A stretch of 64,000 bases of DNA from Acarospora socialis (taxonomy: Eukaryota > Ascomycota > Lecanoromycetes > Acarosporales > Acarosporaceae): NCBI GenBank assembly GCA_025617375.2, contig JAMYGW020000002.1:1116001-1180000 (forward strand), read 5' to 3'. The notes under the pieces were generated by a model. That model did no database searches. It was not told the origin of the DNA and saw nothing but the letters and a program-made list of their open reading frames with translations. This document shows positions 4,843-26,946 of the stretch, piece after piece. The first letter of the stretch is position 1. The number at the start of each line of letters is the position of its first letter. The position numbers were made by a program, and so were the translations under genes.

Positions 4843-6854
4843 TTAGACCCAGTACCGGCTCCATATTTTGCGTTGTTCATCATTCCCCTCAAACTGCAGA
4901 TATTGTTACCGATGCATATCCTCAAAAGGTAAATTTTACCCTTGACTGGCCCTATTACGGACATGCCACACAGGTTGAGACTGACCTTGAACTCGATCTT
5001 GATGATCTCTTCAAATCCTTCCTTGAGCGCCGGCTCTCGGAACCTAGAGGCAAATCCTGCGAACGCTACTCTTGGTAGCATGGTCCGCTGTTCTGGATTC
5101 ATCAAAGCACCACCTAAGGCTCTAACTGTGTCGTTGTGTTCGCACAACTTCGGCGGGACGGCGAGATAGACACAGCGAATAGGGACTTTGATTCTTCTGG
5201 CAAGTTTGATCCATATGGCTCGTGTGTCCGGGTCGGCATTGGTGTTGTCTAGTGTATCAGGCGTTATGAGGACCGGCTTCCTTGCTTGTGTGCAGAGTGA
5301 AGTCTGAAACATACCTACAGCAACGGCCTTGCCCTCAGAAAGGTACTGGGTAGTAAGTTGGACACACCTGTCTCGCTAATGCAGACAAAGTTACTTCGAT
5401 TCCGTGCAGCATCGGTTAGAGGCAGAGAGCGAGACGACGTACTGTTTTCAACTGATCCTGATTGACACGCTCGTAACCGAGCGGTCTCAAATGATTCCAG
5501 TAGAAGGTGGATTTCCCTGCGTACACGAAGATGAGCTTTCACACTTGATGCATTAAATCGACTCGGCTTTGCTCGGCCTCATTGGCACCACCCGTCTGTG
5601 CAGTTACCGCCAAGAGATGGATGAATAGGTGGATTACCTGCACCAGGACTACCGCATAGAAGCACAATGTCAGGTGTGCTATTTTTGGTGAGCAATGTAG
5701 GTGCTGCTGGCTCGTCAGAAGGTGCAGGACAGCCAATTGAATGGAACTCACTAGGGTTGGCGGCGTTGCTGGAAGTCTCGTCCAGGTAGGTTACTGGCTC
5801 AAAACGTCTAGCAAACGCTTGTGGAGCCTCGCCGAGAAAGAATTCTTCTGGCGTTTTGAAGCTTATACCAACGTTGCTGGCGAAGTCTCTGTAACGTATC
5901 TGAGTGGAGCTGTGTCACGAGTAGAACCCTGCAGACACATACCGATCGGAACACGCGTGATCGATGCCAACCCCTCCTATGCTTAACCTTCCTCCTGCGT
6001 CACCCACAAATAGAGAGCTGTCTAAATCCAGGCTTTCGGATATCTCAAGGTCGTGATCCTCAAGCATCTCGGCCCACATACCAGTCCGGGGCTTTCTGTA
6101 TTGATCGCGCGCAGTTGCCGCGTACATACTGATTGGGAGGTTAAGCTGATTGAAGACTGAGGCGACCTTCCTCTTGAAGTCTGCAAGCCGTTTCTGATCG
6201 CTCTTGACAGACTTGGGATCACTTCTGAGGCTTATGCCACCTTGGTTGCTAAGAATAACGATCTGATACCTGGCCATTCCCCGCAAAAGACCTCAGCATG
6301 GGTCAACCGCAGATATGGTCCCCGTAGTAGGCAGAGCGTAGAAACTCACCCGTCCGCATGAAGGGCTTTCAGTCTTCCAGGCACATTCCTGTGCCACCAC
6401 TTCCAGTCCGTTGCGTCTTTTGCAAACACATTTCCGGAGGCAGATTGTATGAGTGTAGAATCCTGCAATATCCGTGCTCCGTCAGGTCCAGCTTGCTGAA
6501 CGGTGAATGGATGGAGACGGGATGTAATTACGAAATCAAAGCCGGCGACCCGACGGCGCTTTGAAGGAGGCCGTTCTCCATTTTCGTCACCAGCTCTGTA
6601 TCGTCCAATAAGGAGACTGTTGTTCACGATGCGCCATGTGGTCTTCTCCGGCTCCTTTTGAGACAACGGAGTGAAAAAGCTGGCCACAGCATCTTCTGCG
6701 GTACACGTCAGTCCCACCTGTTACTGAGCAAGTCGTTACCCAAAACGTTTTGCCTTGGCTCACTTGTTGTCGTTGACTCAAATTTCCTTTTTAATGGTGG
6801 GGGAGATAGCGAGCCTTCACGGACGCTCACAGGCCGCTTCCGGTAACCCTTCAT
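4843..6854 (-). CDS. pnk1: Bifunctional polynucleotide phosphatase/kinase (PNKP)
   Basis: DNA-end repair enzyme: removes 3'-phosphates and phosphorylates 5'-hydroxyls at strand breaks, in the nucleus. Nine exons: 6764-6854, 6532-6695, 6350-6462, 5943-6269, 5638-5888, 5443-5516, 5315-5375, 4986-5248 and 4843-4893, giving 464 aa with all phases consistent. The N-terminus is basic (PPPLKRK). The HAD phosphatase domain starts with AVASFFTPLSQ; its nucleophile motif FDF|DSTL is split by intron 2. VILSNQGG and FVGDAGGR follow. The kinase P-loop GSPGAG|KSTFYW is split by intron 5. DNTNADPDTRA, PPKLCEHNDTVRAL and FASRFREP are kinase motifs. The last exon adds FEGNDEQRKIWSRYWV. The start could also be an upstream in-frame ATG at 6902. 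Introns 2 (69 bp) and 7 (66 bp) are multiples of three without stops. Domain assignment is secure. Confidence 0.93.
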
Positions 6855-11443: not shown

Positions 11444-11989
11444 CCATGGACAAAAGCCCCGGGTAATGCTTGGTTTGACATTGGATTCTAGCGTGCGAAT
11501 ACTGGGTGTCTTTATCGATACGACTTATATTAGGCCGTGTTACATTCCGGAGTCAATGAGACTGTAGTTCAAATTCTCAGGATAAGAATCTTCAGTATTA
11601 TGTCTTAGTATCGTACGTTGTCGCGTTGGAAACATTTTTATGGTGTTTTGCATGTCAGAACCGAGGCAGTTCGACTGGTGCGACAAGCTCGGAACATCCC
11701 AGAGGGAGACGAACAGCGCTGTATGAAAGATTATCGCTCTCAACACCAATTGCTGCTGGACCTTTGATATGGATAACCTCTGAACTTGCCCGAATCGAAC
11801 CATGCCAATATATTCGAGCACAGTAGCTTCGCCTTCGATCCATCAGCATGAGACAGCCGGCCATTAGCATTGTGGCTATTTTGCGTCAACCGGAACCCAT
11901 GTGATATTTCAGTCCTTGTTCAGCCTTCGATTAGTTCCTTCCCCGCCGGTGTTCTCTATTGGCTTCCCAATCGATTTTCTGTCCTCGCC
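11444..11989. other. Spacer monooxygenase - gut2
   Basis: 546 bp between two plus-strand genes, with the 3' UTR of the first and promoter of gut2. No additional gene is seen; in-frame codons upstream of 11990 look like leader sequence. Confidence 0.5.
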
Positions 11990-14314
11990 ATGGCAGCGCG
12001 TCAGTCTCGACGCCTGCTGAGACCCCTCCTTTACACCTCCGCAGCAGCCGCTCTCGGCGGAGGCCTCCTCTACGTATCCTATCGACCCCGCCGTATACCG
12101 GGCTCGGACCCAGCAGCCGTGCCTCCGCCTACCTATGGCGAAGGAGGGACTTTGAATCCGCCACAGTTTCCCTTGATCAAGAGTCGGGAGGCGCAGATTG
12201 CGGATTTGAAGAGGAGTGCGGGTGGCGCGAGGCAGGGTGTCGATAAACTAGCCCTAGCCAAAGGAGGTCTTTTCGGAGGTGTTTTCGGCTCAAGTGCGGA
12301 TAAGGAGAAGGATAGTGGGGATGAAGATGCTGCTGCGGAGTGCCCATATGATCTGCTGATCATCGGTGGGGGTGCGACGGGGTCCGGAATCGCGCTTGAT
12401 GCAGCGACGAGAGGACTCAAAGTCGCGCTTGTGGAGAGGGACGATTTCAGTAGTGGGACGAGTAGCAAAAGTACCAAATTGGTGCATGGCGGGGTGCGGT
12501 ATCTGGAGAAGGCGGTTTGGGAGTTGGATTATAATCAGTATGCTCTCCGCCAAAAGATCATTGATGTGAGGCAGAGATGGCTGACGTTCGGAAAGATACA
12601 AGCTTGTGAAGGAGGCGTTGCGGGAACGGAAATATTTCTTGGATACGGCGCCGCATCTGTCGATGTGGTTACCTATCATGCTGCCGATCCAGCACTGGTG
12701 GCAGGCGCCTTACTTTTGGGCTGGGACGAAGTTTTACGACTTGTTGGCTGGATCAGAGGGCATTGAAAGCTCGTACTTCTTGACTAAAAGCAAAGCATTG
12801 GATGCGTTTCCGATGCTGAAGAAAGATAATCTTTTCGGCGCTTTGGTGTACTATGGTAAGCGTTCCTTGTGTCGAGAAAGTATATCACGGGCTGAACGTA
12901 AGCAGATGGAGCACATAACGACTCGCGCATGAATGTCTCATTAGCAATGACAGCAGCGCTGTACGGAAGTACAGTCGTGAACCACTTAGAGGTCACAGGC
13001 CTTGAAAAAGACGCATCAGGTAGACTCAACGGCGCCAAGGTCAAAGATCTGATCCAAGAGAAAAACGGAAAGAAGGCGGAAGAGTTCACTATCCGAGCGA
13101 AAGGGATTATCAACGCCACCGGGCCTTTCACAGACTCTATCCGCATGATGGATAATCCGAAGGTCGACGAAATAGTGGCACCGAGTTCGGGCGTGCATGT
13201 GATCCTACCAGGATATTACAGCCCCGCGAACATGGGATTGATCGACCCCTCGACATCGGACGGGCGAGTCATCTTCTTTCTGCCGTGGCAAGGCAACACC
13301 ATAGCAGGAACCACCGACGCCGCCACGAACATAACGCAGAACCCCATCGCAGGCGAGGAAGAAATCAACTGGATCCTCTCCGAGATCCGAGGCTACCTCG
13401 CCCCAGACATCAACGTGCGAAGGAGCGACGTCCTGGCCGCGTGGTCGGGTATCAGACCACTAGTCCGCGACCCTAAAGCCCGCAACACCGAATCTCTCGT
13501 CCGGAACCACCTCGTTACCGTCTCCGACTCCGGCCTCCTGACCTGCGCCGGCGGCAAATGGACGACCTACCGACAGATGGCCGAAGAGTCCGTTGACGAA
13601 GCCATCAAGCTCTACAACCTGCACCCAGGACCCGTAACCGGCGTCCCCGACATCAGCGGCACGGAGATGATCGACGACGCCGCCACCCTCGACGGCACCT
13701 GCCAGACGCACCAAGTACGCCTGATCGGCGCCCACGGCTACTCCAAAACCCTCTTCATCCCTTTGATCCAGCACTTTGGCCTCGAGACCGACGTCGCCCG
13801 GCACCTGGTCGAATCCTACGGCGACCGGGCCTGGACCGTCGCGTCCCTCTCGGCCCCCACCCACGCTCGCTTCCCCGTCCGCGGCCTGCGCATCTCCGCC
13901 CTGTACCCCTTCGTCGACGGCGAGGTGCGCTACGCCGTGCGGCACGAGTACGCGCAGACGGCCGTCGACGTCCTGGCGCGGCGGACGCGCCTCGCCTTCC
14001 TGAACGCCCAGGCTGCCCTCGACGCCCTGCCGACGGTCATCGACCTGATGGCCGAGGAGCTGGGCTGGGGCAAGGCCCGCCGCGAGCTCGAATGGAGAGC
14101 GTCGGTGCACTTCCTGGCCAGCATGGGCTTGCCCAAGAGCAAGCTGGGCGTTACGCGGGCGGACGTCGAGAGCGGGCGGGCGGCGCGCTTCGACGAGCAC
14201 GAGAGGAAATTGGCGTCGAGGGACGCGAGGCCGACGGATGTGTTGGAGAGCGATTCGAGGTTCGAGGAGGGGCATAATCCGGTTATTGGGAAGGAGTCAG
14301 CGGCGAATCGGTAG
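11990..14314 (+). CDS. gut2: FAD-dependent glycerol-3-phosphate dehydrogenase, mitochondrial
   Basis: Oxidises sn-glycerol 3-phosphate to dihydroxyacetone phosphate and passes electrons to ubiquinone at the mitochondrial inner membrane (glycerol use and G3P shuttle). Exons 11990-12537, 12596-12855 and 12906-14314 (introns 58 and 50 bp) give 738 aa. The N-terminus is Arg-rich and precedes a hydrophobic segment ([15 protein letters not shown], residues about 18-32), consistent with import and membrane anchoring. The FAD motif [21 protein letters not shown] is near residues 121-141, followed by [15 protein letters not shown]. After splicing, [19 protein letters not shown] and [15 protein letters not shown] are restored, as in family members. 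The C-terminal helical domain ([19 protein letters not shown]) is present. The last third is markedly richer in G/C third positions than the first. Confidence 0.94.
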
Positions 14315-15256: not shown

Positions 15257-17659
15257 TTAGCTCTCACGCTGCGCCCAGTCGTCGTAGAAGACGGGTTGGC
15301 CGAGGACGGGATCATTGATGGAGGCCATCTTGAAGCCGTCGCGGTTGAACTGCTCCCAGTCGTTGAGACGCACGTCCAACATGGCCGTGATGTCCATGGG
15401 GCCCGACTCGGGATTGGCCTGCAGCGGCATGGTGTGGTCGGGGAACGGCGTCCAGAAGAGATCCCACGGGTTGCCGGCGGCTGCAGAAGGGGCGGATGTG
15501 ACGGACGAGGTGTTGTTGGTGGAGGTCGTGGTGGTGATGGGCATGATTTCTTCCGTGGCCGAGTGGCGCCGGCCGTGGTTGGGCCGATGTGGCTCGTTTT
15601 GTTGCAGCGGGGCGAAGAATTCGTCCGAATCGGGCGTCGGCAGCATCATTTCTGGGCTGACGGCCGCGGTTGCCTCCTGCACTTCACTGGGAAGGTTGAT
15701 GCCCCATTTGTTGCCGAGGCTGATGATTATGCGGAGGCAGCGGCCGGCGAAGCCGCTGTTCAACGACATTTCTCTCAGAGCTCGGATGCCGTCGGCTAGG
15801 CCGCGGGTTGCTGATGGGGTTGGGAGGTTGAGAAGATGAACGGTCGAGGATGATAGGATGATGTGGTTGAGGATGACGCACACTCGGCGGAGCCCGTAGA
15901 GATTTCGATATCGGGCAACCAAAGATGACACGCTCTCGGCTGATTGGGTGCATATGTCTCGAGGCGACAACTTCGAATCCAGGAGATCGACCTTCAAGAA
16001 AGGTCGGAAAAGGTGGAGAACAACCGTGTGGTAGTACATACTATGCCTTGATCAGGGGACGGCAAAGGTGACGGTGATTGGTACAACTCACTGGAGAAGC
16101 AAGACCTGAGGAAGGGATGTATGCTCGAGTTGCAAGCACTGCGGTAGCGCCTTATACCATCGCGTGTATCGTGAGTTGAAATCTAAAAGTTTTTTGCTGG
16201 TAAATCTTTCTCGAGGTGCGTAGAACATGTAAACACTATCGTTGACAATTTCGGACAGAAGCCCAAACTGAAGTAGAATCCTATTTGTGTGGCTGGGTCC
16301 CTCGGGGCCGTCTGGTACCGTGTTGTTTGTCTCAGTGTACGGCTTCCATGTCTTGAGCTCGATTTGATCAACCAGTGCCGGCTTGTCCAGACTAATGGCG
16401 GCGCGTGGAACCTGACAGATGCGGCCGATACTGATTGCCCATGCACTACGAGAGGGTCAGCTTTCAAAAAAGTAACTGATGCATCATGGCTGGACGTACG
16501 TTTCGAGGGTGAAACAACCCCAGAAGGTGATCTTGCGCACTTCAATCTCCGTTGGCGTGAGGGCGTTGTTACCTGCTGTTTTGAAACAGAGGTGGAGTCC
16601 GAGCTCAAGCGCCATCCTGATACATCTTCCAGAATACTGGTAACCGCTGCTATCTCGGCCACAAGTCCCCTCTCTTATTCCCATTATCGCAAGTGCCTGC
16701 ACGGTGGTCAAAGTCGAGCGTTCGTTTTCGTAGAGTAATCGTCTTGCTTCGGCGAAAAAATGATCGCCGGCGGTATGCGGATCGCTTGGATTCGTCCGTG
16801 CTTCCGGTCGGTCGGAGAAGATACAGGCAACTGAGAGTAAGGCATTCACGAGCAATGGGCTACAGTACTTTGACCGACCCCGTGCCATATCATACAAGAA
16901 GCACTCCTTGGAGAAGAGAACGTAGAATGGATGTTGCCAGCAAAAGTACAACCCCAACAGATGTCCGACGAAATCGGCGTCCCGAGTGACTTTGGTCCAC
17001 GATTCCGATGACACGTCGGGCCGTAGCGGGATTGCGTCGCTGGAGGGCACGAGACCTAAATTCGAGCTGTGCCCGTAATGCCGTGTCTCGCCCGCTTCGT
17101 CCCGCGCCGGTTTCCCCATCAGATCGGAGAAGTCACCCTCGAGTGTCTGTGAATCCGATCGGTCGGGTAATGGTATGCTCTTTTTCAACGATTCCGCGAT
17201 GGCCTCCAAGTTCTCGTCCGCCCGGATTTGTTGCACGATGTCGGCGACCTCGGCCTCCGACGACGACCGGATCGAGGCGACGATGATGCCCAGCGCGCCA
17301 TTGCGCTCTCGCAACGTTTGAATGTCCCGTTTCAATGCGCCCTTCCGTCGGTGATCGCTGTCAATGTCATAGACGCATTCGGTGTGGTAAACGGCAGTAC
17401 ATGTGGAACAAGATGGAGTGCCGCCGTCGCACTGTCTCGTCCAGAGATTGCGTTAGCCTCACAACTGTTGATGAACAGGGCAGGTCTACCAACGGATGGG
17501 GCTATTGGATGTGCTGCATCGTACCTTGGACTTTCGTTTCCGGCACGGAATACATGCGCTGGAGACGCATCTCCGCTTGGAGGAACGAGCCTCAGGGACA
17601 CCATCCAAGTCGGGCGGAGACTCGCCCTGCTCCTCTTTGGGCAGAATCGGTCGTACCAT
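15257..17659 (-). CDS. Zn(II)2Cys6 transcription factor, NirA-like
   Basis: Fungal binuclear zinc-cluster regulator, nuclear. Exons 17525-17659, 16500-17431, 16092-16445 and 15257-16040 (introns 93, 54 and 51 bp) give 734 aa. The cluster is ACIPCRKRKSK|CDGGTPSCSTC..C, with cysteines at residues 36, 39, 46, 53, 56 and 64 (C-x2-C-x6-C-x6-C-x2-C-x7-C); intron 1 sits exactly before the third cysteine. After it comes YDIDSDHRRKGALKRDIQTL, characteristic of the NirA/nitrate-regulator-like branch, and a coiled linker. The fungal-specific regulatory domain spans roughly residues 180-580 (GLYFCWQHPFYVLFSKE, RCIRMALELGLHL, WAISIGRICQVPRAAISLDKP, HMYYHTVVLHLFRPFLK). The tail is Gln/Thr/Ser-rich and probably activating. 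It is transcribed away from the hexose transporter across 2 kb, so it may control that gene; this is inference. Confidence 0.88.
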
Positions 17660-19712
17660 GATCAAGCTCCAACGTTGCTCTTTACCCTGGCATGTCACTT
17701 TAGGATGGAACAGATTGGACAGGGGCCATGATGTATGTAGCAGTATGGTATCATGTACAATGGTAATTCTTGAGTCCGATTGAAAGGCACGAATTGAAAA
17801 GGCGAAGGAGATGGACGCACGGAGCAAAGTCCGGTCTTGACTGGCCTTATAGATGTTAAATCAGACGCTATCTTCGGGTGAGGAGCATGCAGCGCAATCA
17901 CCTGTGATGAATTCCGCCTTCCAGGTGGTAGGTTAGGTAAGGTAGGCTTACTGGCTAAAGAAAAGGTCGTTTACTGATGATGTAATTATTATAACATGTC
18001 AAGATCATCAAATTGTGACGACTGGTTGGTCATCTGAGATTGGTAATAATGCACTGTAAGTACTCATCCTCGTAAATACCTACTTAGGTAGTCATAATAT
18101 ACACCTGATTACAGTCCGTAAAAATAATAGTTACTGCCATCACCTCATTCTGCTTCGCTTCGACCGGAGGCAAGGTCCGCTTTCCATTTAATTGGCTCCA
18201 GTTGCGACGAAGCCTTGCGCCCCAATACCTCATTCCTTCCCGTCCAGCCATCTGTCCATCCTCTAACATGGTTGACTTTTCATTGCACGGAAGGACCTCC
18301 GCAGGAATAAGGGTTTAACATCGAAGTCCCTGCAGTATGTATGATCCATCGAAGATCGCTCTGTGGGGCCAGGCAGGAATTGATGGGACTGAGCTCCAAG
18401 TTGTGAAGGGCAACAGCCGAGAGTGACTTCTGATTATCTAAGACGAACATGCCGAGCGAACCAGCCGGCATGAAAAAGCAGAATCGACAAAGCGATCTAA
18501 GGAGTCTGTTGAAGGGTGGGTATGTTGGGAATTCTCATTCTAACTGCTTGTGGCCTTGACAGAGAGGTCGTCGGTGAACGACAGGATTAGTAATATCGTC
18601 GGTTGAGTATCTAGTCTACAACTATATTGTACTGTGATAGGTAGCGTGAAACCTAAGAAAGTCTAATATGACTGACTGTCGTTCGTCCTTGGCGGCGAAG
18701 CGATTGGCTGAGAGAATTGACAGCACGTGATTTGAGCCTCATCCCAAGCAGAAATCCACCCACACGGTCCTAGCTGGAGGGCCGAAGGTCCGGAAGTGAA
18801 AGATTGATCTTTGCAAAGAAGTAGTCCCCTGCCTCAGATTCTGAGGTGGCCTCTATGCTTGTACTCCGTACGAGGTCCTCACTGGTCTTAGTCCTGGCAC
18901 TTGAGCATTGTCTTGTTTGTTTACGAATCCAAAGCAGGTAACTGGTCTGAGTCTATCGAGGCGTGAATACGAGAAGAAAGATGTTTGACTGAGGGAGCCG
19001 CATCGATTTCAATTGGGGCTTAGTCAGAACTGTTACCCGTCAGGTAAGAGTACATACACAACCACAAAGGTTTACAACCCTCTAAACCGTAAATGGCAAG
19101 CAAGACGAGGAACGTCGACTACATGTACCGTTGCGACGATGAAGGCCTGTCGGAAATGTCCCATCCGAGAGATGAAGGCTGTTTCGATGGCTTCGCGCAC
19201 CATGACCATTCGAGTCATCCTGTAGCAGGTGGGCAGACACCTGGAAGGGTTCACTTGTTGCTGTGTCGCTCTTTCCTGCCGTCCAAGTTGAGGGAGCGTC
19301 CTTGCATTTCGACAAGTCAAACATAAGCTGAGTCTCCAGGGTATTGCAAGGCTGACTTGGTCGAGCTTTGTATCTGGTAACCGTCTCAGATCCAAGAGCG
19401 TTTGGGATGTGTCAGCCGAGGCTTCCTCTCATAACCATTACACCGTCGTCATTGCAAGATATAGATCCCTTTATTTAAATCTCGTCCGTAAAGTTAGTCA
19501 GTCCGTTTCTTCAAGGGCCTGCCAAGCCCAATGTATGAGAGTTGTTGGTGTGAATGGGCCCGAGCGGGCCGGTAGATATATTCGAGGTAGCTGCAACTTA
19601 GATGATTCGAGTTCCTTCCTCTTTCTCCATGTAGTCGAGATTATTGTTGAACCGAAAGCATGCGTGGCCGACAAACCCGAATTCAACACAATCATTGCCC
19701 TTCTTATCAACA
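17660..19712. promoter_or_regulatory. 2-kb divergent region, regulator / hexose transporter
   Basis: Long upstream region shared by the zinc-cluster regulator (minus) and the hexose transporter (plus). I see no gene. It contains TACTCCGTA at 18862-18870 and several AGGTA/TACCT oligomers (17924-17945, 18076-18091). Long shared intergenic DNA next to a regulator and a sugar transporter is common for strongly regulated fungal promoters. No binding sites could be assigned. Confidence 0.45.
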
Positions 19713-21589
19713 ATGGCAATCCATCCCATGCGGATGTTAGAAACATCTAAGCAAATAGGTGGTGGCGCTTCAGATGAGACGTTGCATCCACCCAGCGGAA
19801 TCGAGGACGGTGGTTATGATATCTCTCCAACTCCGCTGCTGACATGGCGGATGTTCATTCTAGGTGTCCTGGCCTCCATGGGTGGACTGATCTTTGGGGT
19901 AGATTTTTCAAACCAATCAATCATTCAACGCTGTTTCTGACCATGAACAGTATGACACGGGCCAGATTTCAGGCTTCCTGAACATGGAGGACTTTCTTCA
20001 ACGTTTCGGTCAGCTGGATTCCAGTGGGAATTACTACTTCAGTAATACCAGATCCGGTCTTGTCGTTGGCTTAGTATGTGAAGGCGACCTGTGACCTGTC
20101 CACTGTGTTGACATCGGCTGATCTTCAGTAGCTCTCCATCGGTACTCTCATTGGCGCCTTGATCTCCGCGCCGGTAGCAGACCGATTCGGCCGGAAATGG
20201 TCAATCTGCTTCTGGTGCCTCATTTTCGACGTGGGAGTCGTCGTCCAGATCGCTTCCAGTGCGAAATGGTATCAGCTTGCCATTGGCCGCTTGATCGCTG
20301 GTTTTGGCGTGGGAGCGCTCAGTGTCGTAGTTCCCATGTATCAGAGCGAAAGTGCTCCGAGTAAAGTGCGAGGAGCTATAGTCAGGTAAGCTCTGGTCCC
20401 GCAGGCTATCGCATACATTCCGTACATGGTAGTGCCAGCTGCTGACGTTGTCGGTAGTTCGTATCAGCTCTTCATCACCCTTGGGATACTGATCGCCGAG
20501 TGCATCAACTTTGGGACCGAGGCTCGACCGACTTCCCAGTCATGGCGGATACCAATGGGTATCGGTTTTCTGTGGTCTTCAGTATTGGGTATTGGCATCG
20601 TCCTCATGCCAGAGGCCCCAAGATATGCATACCGCAAGGGAAATGTAGATGCAGCGACGAGAACGATGACGCGACTCCACGGTGTCTCCGCCAACCATAT
20701 AACCATTGCCAAGGAACTGGGGGAAATCCAAAAGAAGATCGACGCAGAGCGGGCAGAGGGTCCAGGCCCTTGGTACGAGGTGTTCACCGGGCCAAGGATG
20801 GCCTATCGGACCATTCTTGGGGTTACGCTTCAGGCATTACAACAACTGACTGGCGCCAACTTCTTCTTCTATTATGGGACGAGGTAGCACTTGGCCTTTG
20901 CACCCGGCGCGGAACGTTTGCTGACCATGTACAGTATATTCCGTTCCACTGGCTTGAACAACAGTTATGTAACACAGATGATTCTTGGTACGGTCAACGT
21001 CGTCATGACCTTCCCGGGTCTCTACCTTGTCGAACGCTTTGGTCGTCGAAAATGTCTGATCGCGGGGGCTCTGTGGATGTTTGTGTGTTTCATGGTGTTC
21101 GCTTCCGTCGGCCACTTCGCCTTGGACCAGCGGGCCCCGGAAAACACTCCTCAAGCGGGTGTCGCCATGATTGTATTCGCTTGTCTGTTCATTGCCGCCT
21201 TCGCCAGCACGTGGGGACCGATGGTTTGGGCCGTCGTCGCCGAGCTCTATCCCTCCCGTTACCGGGCAAAGTGCATGGCCATCTCGACTGCCTCGAACTG
21301 GCTCTGGAATTTCCTCATCGCGTTCTTCACCCCGTTTATCACATCGGCTATTGACTTCCGCTATGGGTATGTCTTTGCCGGTTGCTGTCTTGCCGCCGCC
21401 GTCATTGTCTACTTCACTCTCATGGAGAGTCGAGGTAGGACACTCGAGGAGGTAGACACCATGTACACCTTGGGGGTTCCACCTCGGAAGAGTAGCAAGT
21501 ACGTCGCGCCGGAAACCGAGTCGCCGGTAGGGCAGAATGGTGTCAAAGCACAGACTCGAGGGGTCCCAACGACGGAGAAAGTCCAATAG
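19713..21589 (+). CDS. MFS hexose (HXT-type) transporter
   Basis: Plasma-membrane 12-TM sugar/proton symporter of the SP family, most like fungal high-affinity glucose transporters. Exons 19713-19898, 19951-20073, 20132-20385, 20458-20883 and 20935-21589 (introns 52, 58, 72 and 51 bp) give 547 aa with all phases matching. Family marks: GGLIFG|YDTGQISGFLNMEDF after splicing, the loop 2-3 motif DRFGRK, VVPMYQSE, the PESPR equivalent PEAPRYAYRKG, QQLTGANFFFYYGT, the loop 8-9 motif ERFGRRK and AELYPSRYRAKCMAIST. The cytosolic tail is short and charged, without the long C-terminal extension of the glucose sensors Snf3/Rgt2/Rco3, so a true carrier is more likely than a sensor. The start could also be the in-frame ATG at 19728 or 19734. 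It precedes the rhodopsin-FucP fusion on the same strand. Confidence 0.9.
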
Positions 21590-22248
21590 TTCCGGTAGCT
21601 AGACTTGATACCTGACAGTGCTTTAGGTAACTATAACTTTTCGGGTCAACAGTAGTACAGCAATTTCAGTGAAAACTAGCGCTCCATGTGATCGGCGTTA
21701 GGGCAGACAGGTCACATCGATATTTAATAACTCGGTACAAAGTACAGTACCTAAGCAGCTGCCAAACGAACGAGCGTGGAATTCTTCTGCGGGGTAAGGC
21801 ACTCGGGCGAAGTTAAATCACAGTTAAGGCGAACCTAAACAGGCTCACTTTCATGTTGCGGGATCAGGCTGTCGCTTGGTGGGGTTCGTCCTACCTTTAG
21901 GTAATCCGTTACAGAGTAGGTACTCTGTACCTTATCTTGCCCACATGGCAGAGAAACTTGGGGGTCCGAGGTTTTACTTTTAACAGCTGACGTCAGGTAG
22001 CGGGTCAATTCGTCCCTACGCCAAGTCATCCCCAACCAATGCGAGATGAGCTTAAGCTTTCCCTGCTCTTTGGGGGTTGGTTACTTCTCATCCGGTCCGC
22101 CCTCCGCGTATCCTTCATTATTAACAAGCCTGCACTCCGCATTCAAGTGGAGTCGACGAGGTCTATGTCGACGGTGATGGATACCTGGAATAATCCGGCC
22201 GCTCATCAAGCTGGGTAACAGAGCTGCGGGTAATCGGCTGAGGCCCTC
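21590..22248. other. Spacer hexose transporter - fusion gene
   Basis: 659 bp holding the transporter 3' UTR and the promoter of the fusion gene. It contains GTAGGTACTCTGTACCTTA at about 21915-21933 and TACCTTTAGGTAA at 21892-21904. No gene seen. Confidence 0.5.
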
Positions 22249-25063
22249 ATGGCCGACCCTAGTGACGCCATCCAAAACCGAGGACCGGTGGTGCTGGCAG
22301 TCACGACAGCATTGCTGGTCGCATCTTCCGTCTTCGTGGTGTTGCGTTTAGTATCTCGCGTTGGGATCGTGAAAAGGATCTCGTGGGACGATTACTTCAT
22401 AATACTGGCCTGGGTACGTGCAAGCAGATCCATAGGGGCTGCAAGGATCCGGAATCCTGGCTGACAAGCTGTAGCTAATTGCATTCGGGTTTTCCTTCTC
22501 GATATGCTGGGGCACTTCGGTCGGATTGGGGCGTCACGAAGTTGACGTGAAGCCAGGATGGCGCTCTCCGCTCAAGAAGGCCGAGTACGCCTTTTCGGTG
22601 CTCTATGTAAGTTTGACGTTCCAGAGCTGGGCTTCGTGCAACCACACATGCAAGTCCTGACTTGCCCAGAACCCTGCTCTGATGGCGACGAAAACGTCGA
22701 TCCTTGTTTTCTATCTGACGCTCTCGAAAAGTCAACAAGTCTTTCGTCGGTGCACGATCGCCACCTTGGTTGTTGTCAACGCCGCGGGCGTTGCATTGAC
22801 CGCCCTGAACATCTTCCAGTGTCACCCTGTCGGCGCGGTCTTTGAAGAGCCACTGCCATCCTCGGCAACATGTACGGATATTGTGACCTTATACCTATCA
22901 TCAGCACCTGTCAACATCATCACAGACTTGGCAACATTGTTCCTGCCGATGCCGGTGTTGACTGGCATGCGGCTACCACGGAAACAGAAGATCATCTTGA
23001 TCATCACCTTCAGCTTTGGTGCGTTTGTCGCCGTGGTTGATGTCGTTCGCATTGCATACTTGCAGTCGGCGTCACTGGCACGTCTACAACGTGTGGGGAC
23101 GCACAACGGCACCAGCTCGATCGTCACGGAGCAAGATGATTTCTCCTGGTATGCTTCACTGTCGTTTATGTGGTCAGCAGTCGAGGTCAACGTTGGGATT
23201 CTCTGCGCCTGTGTTCCGAGTCTCAAGCCCCTCGTATCCCGCATTCTTCCAAGCCTGCTCACGGATAGAGACGAGCCGAGCGAGAAATCCGAGGTCGGGC
23301 TTGCCGGAACTGCTGGACCGAAGGTGGATATGGGTATGGCCGCTGCTCATCGGATCCCTTCCGTACCGGACAGTCCAGTGAAGACGAGGAACCAGACCTC
23401 TACCGGTGACAGTGGTGAGATGGATATGTTAGAATTCCTTACCACACCCGACATGGTGAACACAGTGACGAGAGCTCCAACTGCCACGACCGTCGCCACA
23501 CGGACCTCTCGTGCCCCTAGCCTGACCTTCTTCGATTTCGTCAACATGAAACAGCCGAAGAGTATGGTGAAGATGAGCGGCAAAGAGTCTTACTTTCCGC
23601 TTGCATTGGTCACCATCCTCTTCTTCTTGTGGGGTTTTGCCTACGGGCTGCTCGACGTCTTGAATTCGCAATTCCAGTTGATTGTCCGCATGAGTAACGG
23701 TCAATCCTTGGGACTTCACAGCGCCTACTTTGGAGCGTATTTTGTCGGCCCACTGACTTTCGGCCGTCTCATCTTGAAGAGATGGGGATTCAGGGCCACG
23801 TTTATCACTGGACTCTGCATTTACGGCTGTGGTACCCTCATCTTTTGGCCGTCTGCCGTCCTGGCGTCTTTCCCAGCTTTCTTGATATCCAATTTCATCG
23901 TTGGTCTGGGTCTTTCCACCCTGGAGATTGCGGCGAATCCATTCATTGCTCTTTGTGGCCCTTCAAAGTACGCCGAAGCCCGGCTCAACCTCGCGCAAGG
24001 TATCCAGGCTGTCGGGAGTGTGGTATCACCTCTTCTCGCCAAGCGAGTGCTCTTCAAGAACCTGCTGGATGCCCCATCACTTATTGATGTCCAATGGACC
24101 TACCTGGGCATTGCCCTCTTCGTTGTGTTGCTCGCCGTCGCCTTCTACTATCTGCCGATACCCGAGGCTTCGGACGACGATCTAGAAGCCGTAGCTGAGC
24201 GTCGACATAGCGTTAACTCGAAAGAAGTTCTGGGTGTAAAGGTAGTCTATGCAACGCTCGCCTTGGGCGTCTTCTCTCAATTCTGTTACGTTGGCGGGCA
24301 AGAAGCCGTGGCCGGAATATATCAGGAATACGTCGTTGCTGCGAATTCGAGGTAACTGAAGATAGAGCCCTCATATTGCATTTAATAAACAACGCTAATA
24401 TGATTAGCTCCTATCTTGGACCATTCGACCTTCAGGTTATCGGACATACAGCATTCGCCGTTGGCCGCTTCCTTTCGGCCTTTGCAGGCTTCATTGTCAA
24501 GCCCCGATGGATTCTCCTGTTCCTCTTCGCCGGGATGATAGTTACCTCTTCTCTCGCCATGGATCTCACAGGCGACTCTGCCGTCTCGATGATTATCCTC
24601 TTGCTGTTCTTTGAGGTAATGTCCCTGCCAAATCCTGCCTGCAGCACGATGTTGACTGCTCTAGTCTGGTGTCTTCTCCATCATCTATGCCATGTGCCTC
24701 CGCGGCCTTGGTGCGCACACCAAGACCGGCTCTGCCTTGATGACCGCGGCCATCTCGGGGGGTGCAATCTTCCCAGTTATCCTCGATCCCGTACAGAATA
24801 GTCGAGGTGTACAGTATTCGTTCTGTGTTATCGTCGCTATCTACGCTTTCGGTGCAACATTCCCAGCCTATCTAAACCTCGTCAACCCTGCGAAAAGGCA
24901 AGTCGACCCTGTCGAGACAGGTCGGTCAGCGCGCACATCTCCGGCAACGTCTGCGAAGCCCTCGAGGGCGCTCGGCGGTGTACTCAGACGCAAGAAGACT
25001 CCGAGTGACCTGCCCACAACGGAGCATGTTGAAGGCAACGATTTAGCTCCGTGGCCAGACTAA
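22249..25063 (+). CDS. Fusion: 7TM fungal rhodopsin-fold domain + FucP-type MFS permease
   Basis: Exons 22249-22413, 22475-22606, 22670-24351, 24408-24615 and 24665-25063 (introns 61, 63, 56 and 49 bp) give 861 aa. Residues about 10-300 are a seven-helix domain of the fungal integral-membrane family (Pth11-type receptors, without CFEM): SWDDYFIILAW, NPALMATKTSILVFYL, FQCHPVG, NIITDLATLFLPMPVL and AVEVNVGILCACVPSLKPL. Residues about 300-400 are a hydrophilic Ser/Thr-rich linker. From residue about 405 the FHS-family L-fucose/glucose permease fold begins (YFPLALVTILFFLWGFAYGLLDVLN, ANPFIALCGP, GQEAVAGIYQEY, HTAFAVGRFLSAF). Exon 3 crosses the junction without an intron, and the frame stays open through 1.68 kb, so a mispredicted merger of two genes is unlikely. 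A receptor-like sensor physically joined to a sugar permease is a reasonable but untested reading. The C-terminus is a basic cytosolic tail. Confidence 0.88.
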
Positions 25064-25787
25064 GGTGCAATGAAGCGGTACCGTTTGTTATTGCTGCTTT
25101 CCAGCGTTGGCGTTCAGGCGGGCCGATGCCCCAGTCCGGCTATGAGGTGAGTGCAAGACATGGCTTTTTATGTAATTAAGTAGATTGTATATATATTCAA
25201 TCCTATTGGTCCTACGATTGCGCCCCAAGACATCTTCCCTTTTTAGTGCCGTTTATATGAATAAGTAATGATTATTGTGATGAAAATCGTTCAAGGGGCG
25301 TATCATAACCGGCAACAGATGTGAAACCCACAACAACGAAGGTGAATAAGTCATATAGTATATCGCTAAAGATGATCTATAAAGAGCTGCAGTTGCTCAC
25401 TTCCACTCAAAAGTATTCTACTGCATTGGTGAAAATATCGGTGTTTATTTTTCTTGAGATTCTGATATCTTGTAACTTAGGTAAGGTTAGTCAGATCGAG
25501 GGAAGTGGATATATCCCACTATCTCCGGCCGGTGCCGTTTTCCCTTATACCCGATCTACCATCTCGACTGCCGGCATCTAATGCATTCTTTTTCTCCACA
25601 AATATATCTATATAAACGCGATCATGGACGTCCACAGATCAACCGATCCATCTCAAGCACAGCCATCGCAGAACCCACACCATCCAACTCGACACCTTTA
25701 CCCACCAACAAACCCATAACCTCCCACATTCCCCCTCATACAACCTACACACTCTCCACCCCAACCAAACCCGACTAAAACCAGAAC
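25064..25787. promoter_or_regulatory. Upstream region of the aldo-keto reductase
   Basis: 724 bp. The left part is A/T-rich; the last 170 bp form an A/C-rich, T- and G-poor leader typical of well-expressed fungal mRNAs. It includes a TATA-like element (separate entry). No gene seen. Confidence 0.5.
25609..25616 (+). promoter_or_regulatory. TATA-like box of the aldo-keto reductase
   Basis: TATATAAA lies 172 bp upstream of the start codon and just before the C/A-rich leader, a plausible core-promoter position for a strongly expressed filamentous-fungus gene. Confidence 0.45.
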
Positions 25788-26946
25788 ATGGCCCCCGCCA
25801 AACTCCCCACCCGCCAGCTCGGCAAAGACGGCCCGCACGTCACGGCGCTCGGCTTCGGCGCGATGGGCCTCTCGGCCTTCTACGGGGCGCCGTCATCGGA
25901 CGCGGAGCGCCTCGCGCTGCTGGACCGGGCGTACGAGCTAGGCGAGCTGCACTGGGACAGCGCGGACATGTACGGCGACAACGAGGACCTGCTAGGGAAG
26001 TGGTTCGCGGCGAACCCGGACAAGCGGGCGGAGATCTTCCTGGCGACGAAGTTCGGCAACGTCGTCAACGCGGACGGCAGCCGCGAGGTGCGGAACGAGC
26101 CGGGGTACGTGAAGGAGGCGTGCGCGAAGAGTCTGCGCCGGCTGGGGCTGGACAGCGTCGATTTGTATTATTGCCATCGGTTGGATGGACGCACGCCGAT
26201 CGAGGAGACGGTCAGGGCTATGGTGGAGTTGAAGAAGTATGTTTCCCCCCCCCCCCCCCCCCCCCCCGGCGCTGCCCTCCCCTTCCCTACTCTCCTCCGG
26301 AACTTTCTCTTTCGACGGCCTTGTGGTCTTGAACACACACGCGCTGACGCTTCCCCGCAGCGAAGGCAAAATCAAATACCTCGGCCTCTCCGAGTGCTCT
26401 TCCTCGTCCCTCCGCCGCGCCCACGCCGTGCACCCCATCTCCGCCGTGCAGGTCGAATACTCGCCCTTCACCCTGGACATCGAGTCGCCACAAGTCAACC
26501 TCCTCTCCACCTGCCGCGAGCTGGGCGTGGCCGTCGTCGCCTACTCGCCGCTGGGGCGGGGCTTCCTGACGGGCGCGTACCAGTCGGCCGACGACTTCGA
26601 GGCGGGCGACTTCCGACGCATGGCGCCGCGCTTCTCGGCGGACAACTTCCCGCGCAACCTGAAGCTCGTGGCGGAGCTGGGCCGGATCGCGGCGCGGAAG
26701 GGGTGCACGACGGGCCAGCTGACGCTCGCGTGGCTGCTGGCGCAGGGCGAGGATGTCGTTCCCATCCCGGGCACGAAGAAGGTCAAGTATCTGGAGGAGA
26801 ACCTGAAGGCGTTGGAGGTCAGGCTGAGTGAGGAGGAGGTGGGGGAGGTGAGGAGGGCGGTGGAGAACGCGGAGGTGCATGGGGGCAGGTATCCGGAGGT
26901 GATGGCGGGGTTGCTGTTTAGGGATAGTCCGCCGTTGAAGAAGTAG
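25788..26946 (+). CDS. Aldo-keto reductase (YakC/AKR13-like)
   Basis: NADPH-dependent carbonyl reductase with a TIM-barrel fold; substrate unknown. Exon 1 is 25788-26236, the intron 26237-26360 (124 bp), exon 2 is 26361-26946; 344 aa, normal for the family. The catalytic tetrad is visible: Asp and Tyr in [16 protein letters not shown], Lys in LATKFGN and His in DLYYCHRLD. The cofactor-binding end is [32 protein letters not shown] and [11 protein letters not shown] are also characteristic. Codon third positions are almost all G or C, very different from the neighbouring fusion gene, and this generates long meaningless open frames on the other strand. The intron holds a 23-base C run. Confidence 0.92.
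26245..26267 (+). repeat. C homopolymer (23) in the aldo-keto reductase intron
   Basis: Uninterrupted run of 23 C residues starting 8 bp after the 5' splice site. Such a run is prone to slippage and to length error in sequencing. It lies inside the intron and does not touch coding sequence. Confidence 0.9.

Follow-up and report, generated by a model that had tools for sequence, protein, structure and literature searches.

Described relatives exist for each part of the locus reported here. According to the sections consulted of a 2026 review, Pth11 has been reported to work via a G protein and the cAMP-PKA pathway, and several of the Pth11-like receptors studied so far are said there to have no known ligand (PMC13308352). 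A receptor-like domain covalently bound to a sugar carrier would bring its own clue to the ligand. Among fungal members of the FHS family of sugar permeases, the portions of the literature consulted connect RhtA of Aspergillus niger, for which the hexose-transport-null laboratory yeast EBY.VW4000 was used, with L-rhamnose (PMC5161314) and FRT-1 of Neurospora with rhamnose and fucose (PMC10774165), and list a Trichoderma protein annotated as a fucose permease among the transporters induced on cellulose and sophorose. For the bacterial member FucP, excerpts of two papers describe Asp46 and Glu135 as acting in the protonation cycle (PMC3824880) and place Asp46 in proton coupling (PMC4882079).

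The window, the whole 64,000-nucleotide stretch of Acarospora socialis DNA analyzed here, contains a gene in which domains of both families appear to be joined. The first-pass annotation of the window had placed it at 22249-25063, and rebuilding the gene from the sequence gave exactly these coordinates, on the forward strand, with five exons encoding 861 residues. The four introns, of 61, 63, 56, and 49 bases, each have GT..AG ends, the splice sites having been set by consensus, reading frame, and domain continuity. The features are as follows:

22249-25063, forward strand: entire coding region, 861 residues, read as 7TM domain, cytosolic linker, and 12-helix permease from the spliced frame, GT..AG introns, and domain matches
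22249-22413, forward strand: exon 1, residues 1-55, with a short N-terminus, TM1, the conserved WDD loop, and the start of TM2
22475-22606, forward strand: exon 2, residues 56-99, with the remainder of TM2, an outer loop, and the start of TM3
22670-24351, forward strand: exon 3, with TM3-TM7, the linker, the N-domain of the permease, and the beginning of its C-domain; spans the join, 1,682 bases without a stop
23285-23572, forward strand: linker, residues 305-400, Thr/Ser-rich and predicted to be cytosolic, from the codon score, shuffle and intergenic controls, and charge pattern
23573-24351, forward strand: permease part of exon 3, from M401, with the N-domain and the first part of the C-domain; contains D428 and E518
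24408-24615, forward strand: exon 4, permease C-domain
24665-25063, forward strand: exon 5, end of the C-domain with the substituted residues S734, I735, D770, and N774, then a cytosolic tail

Two Pfam families matched the 861-residue protein at E ≤ 1. PF20684 (Fung_rhodopsin) covered residues 32-290 over profile positions 1-237 of 237, with 198 bits against a cut-off of 27 (E 2.3e-58, hmmscan), and PF07690 (MFS_1) covered residues 416-764 with 53.7 bits (hmmscan against Pfam). When PDB sequences were searched with phmmer, the two matches at E ≤ 0.01 were both to E. coli FucP (residues 405-777, E 1.2e-34), the alignment with the fused permease covering residues 22-409 of the FucP chain. The NCBIfam fucP model (TIGR00885) was matched over positions 4-381 of 410 (E 3.5e-45), with 154.9 bits against an equivalog cut-off of 280.4, and PRK10133, gluP, and NagP were also matched, each under its full-protein cut-off. 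On these scores we take the permease half to be an FHS-type carrier, yet one outside NCBI's rules for the name FucP. The full-length Fung_rhodopsin match and the FucP-type matches bear out the earlier proposal of a 7TM domain and a complete FHS/FucP-type permease in one frame. Other parts of that description needed adjustment: six of the seven proposed hydrophobic segments appear as clear hydropathy peaks (threshold 1.4), with TM3 (approximately residues 92-115) placed via the family alignment only, and the linker is enriched in Ser/Thr, but moderately so (22.9%; the two domains have 16.4% and 12.6%). A CFEM domain (PF05730) was absent from the Pfam results at E ≤ 1, and approximately 12 residues precede TM1.

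The 1.68-kb exon proposed to cross the join is indeed stop-free, with the join inside it. To score coding character we used codon log-odds trained on ten other open reading frames of the window (5,394 codons). The linker reached 0.194 in frame, the other five frames giving -0.077 to 0.147, and exceeded the maximum of 0.125 found among 81 overlapping intergenic windows, each taken at the best of its six frames and all drawn from two presumed intergenic stretches only (21590-22248 and 25064-25788). None of 1000 dinucleotide shuffles of the linker attained its in-frame score. For coding windows (n = 144), the 5-95% range was 0.052-0.272, and 78% scored under the linker. With a score above the intergenic windows and the shuffles and within the coding range, the linker reads as coding. 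Of 1412 overlapping intergenic windows of 113 codons, 0 were open; among 1000 shuffled versions of the linker, 13 were open. Along exon 3, frame 0 topped the other plus frames in all 21 windows; a minus frame outscored it in three, which lie where the 7TM part ends and where the permease begins, and in none of the linker core.

Because the 7TM frame has no stop until the permease's own, two separate genes would need an extra, unseen intron, and we rejected them as the main reading on the unbroken frame and the linker statistics. In a variant of that reading, whether as a pair of genes or as a single locus giving two transcripts, a promoter in the linker would drive expression of the permease from an internal ATG, and the 7TM half would be terminated through a different splice. 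Methionine codons do stand in frame at 392, 398, and 401, but the separate receptor again requires the unseen intron and the linker scores outside the intergenic range, and we hold this arrangement to be very unlikely, though an additional shorter transcript starting at M392, M398, or M401 may exist. An assembly or base error that deleted a stop or merged two genes would leave a similar picture; given a coding-like linker of approximately 100 codons, a low-quality signature not seen, and a join lying within a 3.67-Mb contig, such an artefact seems extremely improbable. That the locus encodes one fused protein is in our judgment highly probable.

The charges flanking the predicted helices give an orientation for this protein. 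When the helices of the 7TM part were delimited by hand, 9 K/R and 1 D/E fell in its inner loops, against 8 K/R and 10 D/E in its outer loops. The 123 residues leading to the permease include 15 K/R, and the whole pattern fits a 7TM N-terminus outside and a linker inside. The N-terminus of an MFS carrier lies inside. The topologies of the halves would thus be compatible, the seven helices leaving the chain on the inner side, where an MFS carrier begins. The third outer loop carries a sequon for N-glycosylation at N245. A single-sequence structure prediction of exon 3 alone gave a mean pLDDT of 38.4 and a pTM of 0.25, under usable confidence.

We aligned the permease half with a stand-alone copy from the same genome and with nine bacterial sequences, namely E. 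coli FucP and eight relatives borne on plasmids; plasmid records with bacterial FHS relatives numbered 118. The genome has one other clear FHS locus (C12:1374902-1376178), the stand-alone copy, plus a single weak piece (E 0.01) on C7. The stand-alone gene (L044, 4771-6311) has two exons encoding 493 residues, approximately 50 of which precede the first helix, and a stop lies in frame 45 bases upstream of its ATG; the nearest listed Fung_rhodopsin match on its contig is approximately 300 kb away. Its intron (5064-5122) has no counterpart in the fused gene, and the two permease introns of the fused gene are missing from it.

The residues of the proton cycle are retained, D428 and E518 of the fused permease aligning with Asp46 and Glu135 of FucP. 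As these positions vary among the bacterial relatives (Asp46 kept in seven of nine and replaced by Asn in two, Glu135 kept in five and replaced by Gln in four), their presence is not specific proof of function. FucP Tyr365 corresponds to Phe733, and Phe is found also in the stand-alone copy and in seven of the nine bacteria.

The two domains of the permease differ in their resemblance to the stand-alone copy: identity was 64.1% in the N-domain (181 positions) and 37.5% in the C-domain (216 positions), whereas identity between the stand-alone copy and FucP was nearly equal by domain (32.8% and 30.9%, respectively). Defining conserved sites as those kept in at least eight of the nine bacterial sequences, we found that both fungal copies retained 26 of 35 in the N-domain, each having lost one that the other kept, and that in the C-domain the fused copy retained 14 of 20 and the stand-alone copy 18. 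Five C-domain sites were lost in the fused copy only: L254K (beside a gap), P366S, T367I, G402D, and D406N, in FucP numbers. Uncorrected relative-rate counts for the C-domain were 34:8 with FucP as outgroup (χ2 16.1), 32:15 with Ewingella (6.15), and 30:16 with Rufibacter (4.26), the other six outgroups leaning the same way without significance; for the N-domain, none of the nine outgroups gave a significant result. In an uncorrected sign test over pooled outgroups, the C-domain stood at 42:22 (P = 0.017) and the N-domain at 20:14 (P = 0.39). In both tests some of the outgroups are near relatives. We consider these results moderate evidence for changed constraints on the second half of the fused carrier, and the five losses may impair transport.

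Such a pattern could also mean that the permease half is a sensor and not a carrier, a sugar-binding module that would signal to the cell by way of either the 7TM half or the linker. The yeast proteins Snf3 and Rgt2 are permeases turned sugar sensors. The drop in identity from N-domain to C-domain, the five private C-domain losses, and the pooled sign test all agree with this; against it, just three of the nine outgroups give a relative-rate excess that reaches (uncorrected) significance, the proton-cycle acids are kept, and none of the lost residues is established here as essential for transport. We judge a pure sensor somewhat unlikely.

The 7TM half has many relatives in the genome, where we counted 105 Fung_rhodopsin matches, these being exon pieces and not genes; the best-scoring match elsewhere is 31% identical to the fused domain. 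The linker, searched against its own genome, gave no other match above the limit. For the comparison of conserved sites, 30 of the 105 matches were used and 2 set aside, leaving up to 28 own-genome loci, which were scored on paralogue L016 with conservation defined as at least 75% identity among loci; only residues 94-220 could be scored. The fused domain retained 17 of 23 family-conserved sites, among them the cysteine pair of the loops (C150 and C167), K107, D185, and P192. The six losses comprise two Trp, one Leu, one Val, and two residues at the inner end of TM3, where T116 stands in place of an Arg found in 20 of 25 relatives and S118 in place of a Phe found in 23 of 23. In animal class-A GPCRs the inner end of TM3 carries the DRY motif, a comparison of uncertain validity for the Pth11-like family. 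Loss of the Arg and Phe may impair signaling. With the TM3 Arg lost and the C-domain of the permease drifted, neither a working receptor nor a working carrier is to be assumed.

Unusual substitutions in both halves are also what one could expect if neighboring genes had been joined by chance, with the 7TM half serving at most to anchor the protein in the membrane or aid its trafficking, and with the permease working or decaying alone. Elsewhere in this genome each domain occurs in proteins that lack the other, and a second fusion was not found there at the sensitivity of the searches used, both of which suit a passive fusion, but the linker and both halves have retained an unbroken frame and coding-like codon use, and we regard this explanation as unlikely. 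Even if only passive, the gene would be an instructive fusion and an annotation trap, since it would be counted wrongly in a survey of either family.

The surroundings of the gene include several annotated neighbors. A Zn2Cys6 fungal transcription factor gene (15257-17860, reverse strand), with a Fungal_trans match and Zn_clus just under its cut-off, lies upstream, as does an ordinary Sugar_tr porter on the same strand as the fusion gene, whose last two exons (20390-21589, forward strand) end approximately 660 bases before it. The regulator, the porter, and the fusion gene could possibly form a small uptake cluster. An aldo-keto reductase gene lies downstream; a run of 23 C (26245-26267), where sequencing length errors are likely, is probably in one of its introns. 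A cluster extended to this gene was considered and dropped, as nothing was found that links the neighbors to the fusion gene. A gene for a protein resembling FAD-dependent glycerol-3-phosphate oxidases/dehydrogenases (DAO, DAO_C) is located at 11852-14311 on the forward strand. Within the window we found neither a tRNA nor any Rfam match that reached gathering score, and around the fusion gene we saw no informative repeats.

Our preferred reading, to which we give a probability of approximately 0.4, is that the locus encodes a plasma-membrane fusion of a Pth11-like 7TM domain and an FHS permease in which sugar binding or transport is coupled in cis to signaling or turnover. One gene would then give one membrane protein of approximately 19 helices, in which the Pth11-like domain, with its N-terminus outside and C-terminus inside, is followed by a cytosolic linker of approximately 100-120 residues and a 12-helix FHS permease whose N-terminus lies inside. 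The protein would reside in the plasma membrane, and its permease half would bind, and probably carry, a deoxyhexose-type sugar together with a proton, the tether to the 7TM half passing the effect of binding or transport on to signaling or turnover. The parts of this reading differ in strength. The substrates of RhtA and FRT-1 and the Trichoderma induction record make a deoxyhexose or hexose the likely ligand by analogy. That the permease half binds a sugar is probable, that it has kept a useful rate of transport is about as likely as not, and an influence of the two halves on each other falls somewhat short of that.

The first-pass annotation had gone further and proposed a transceptor, the 7TM half sensing or gating what the permease carries; this is plausible, and a carrier drifting toward a sensor would fit about as well. 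A specific form of the idea, a single-chain receptor-carrier, would have the 7TM half read the conformational state of the FHS permease, so that a plant deoxyhexose is sensed by being bound or carried and the drifted C-domain marks a carrier becoming a sensor; this is rather unlikely as a whole. A natural receptor-transporter fusion would allow a direct test of the transceptor idea, by splitting the halves.

A limited search of the open-access literature, seen in part, found no description of a Pth11-FHS fusion, which does not prove absence, and the literature examined does not give the architecture of the Neurospora FHS proteins NCU03468, NCU04310, NCU05394, and FRT-1. The first-pass annotation also suggested that the architecture may recur in other ascomycetes; the fungal sequence covered here is that of this single genome. 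Scans by exact short peptides are insensitive and uninformative on recurrence in fungi: prokaryote contigs gave 20 pattern matches with the exon 3 query and 46 with the two-permease alignment query, none confirmed in either case even though bacterial relatives exist, and viral contigs gave no pattern match.

In comparison with Pth11-like receptors (fungal GPCR class XIV, PF20684), the fused protein shares the whole Pfam model and most of the conserved sites, but it has no CFEM domain, its C-terminus continues into a permease, and T116 and S118 replace the conserved Arg and Phe. It resembles the FHS family (TC 2.A.1.7; FucP, RhtA, and FRT-1) in aligning with FucP over residues 405-777 and in keeping the equivalents of D46 and E135, and it differs in the 7TM domain in front, the drifted C-domain, and a score under the fucP equivalog cut-off. 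With the yeast nutrient transceptors Gap1, Pho84, and Sul1/2 it would share the proposed union of transport and signaling; those are ordinary transporters that also signal, and none is described, in the sections of the source consulted, as joined to a 7TM receptor domain (PMC3824880). The GPCR-bigrams of oomycetes and other protists, as presented in the parts of their survey consulted, likewise combine a 7TM domain and a second functional domain, usually C-terminal, in one chain; the accessory domains listed are enzymes (PIPK, TKL, INPP, AC, PDE, and AP), whereas the partner here is a 12-helix carrier, and the survey dropped transporter-like proteins (PMC5784254). Both halves of the fused protein belong to common families, and among the published ideas in the sources consulted, the closest to their union is that of the GPCR-bigrams (PMC5784254).
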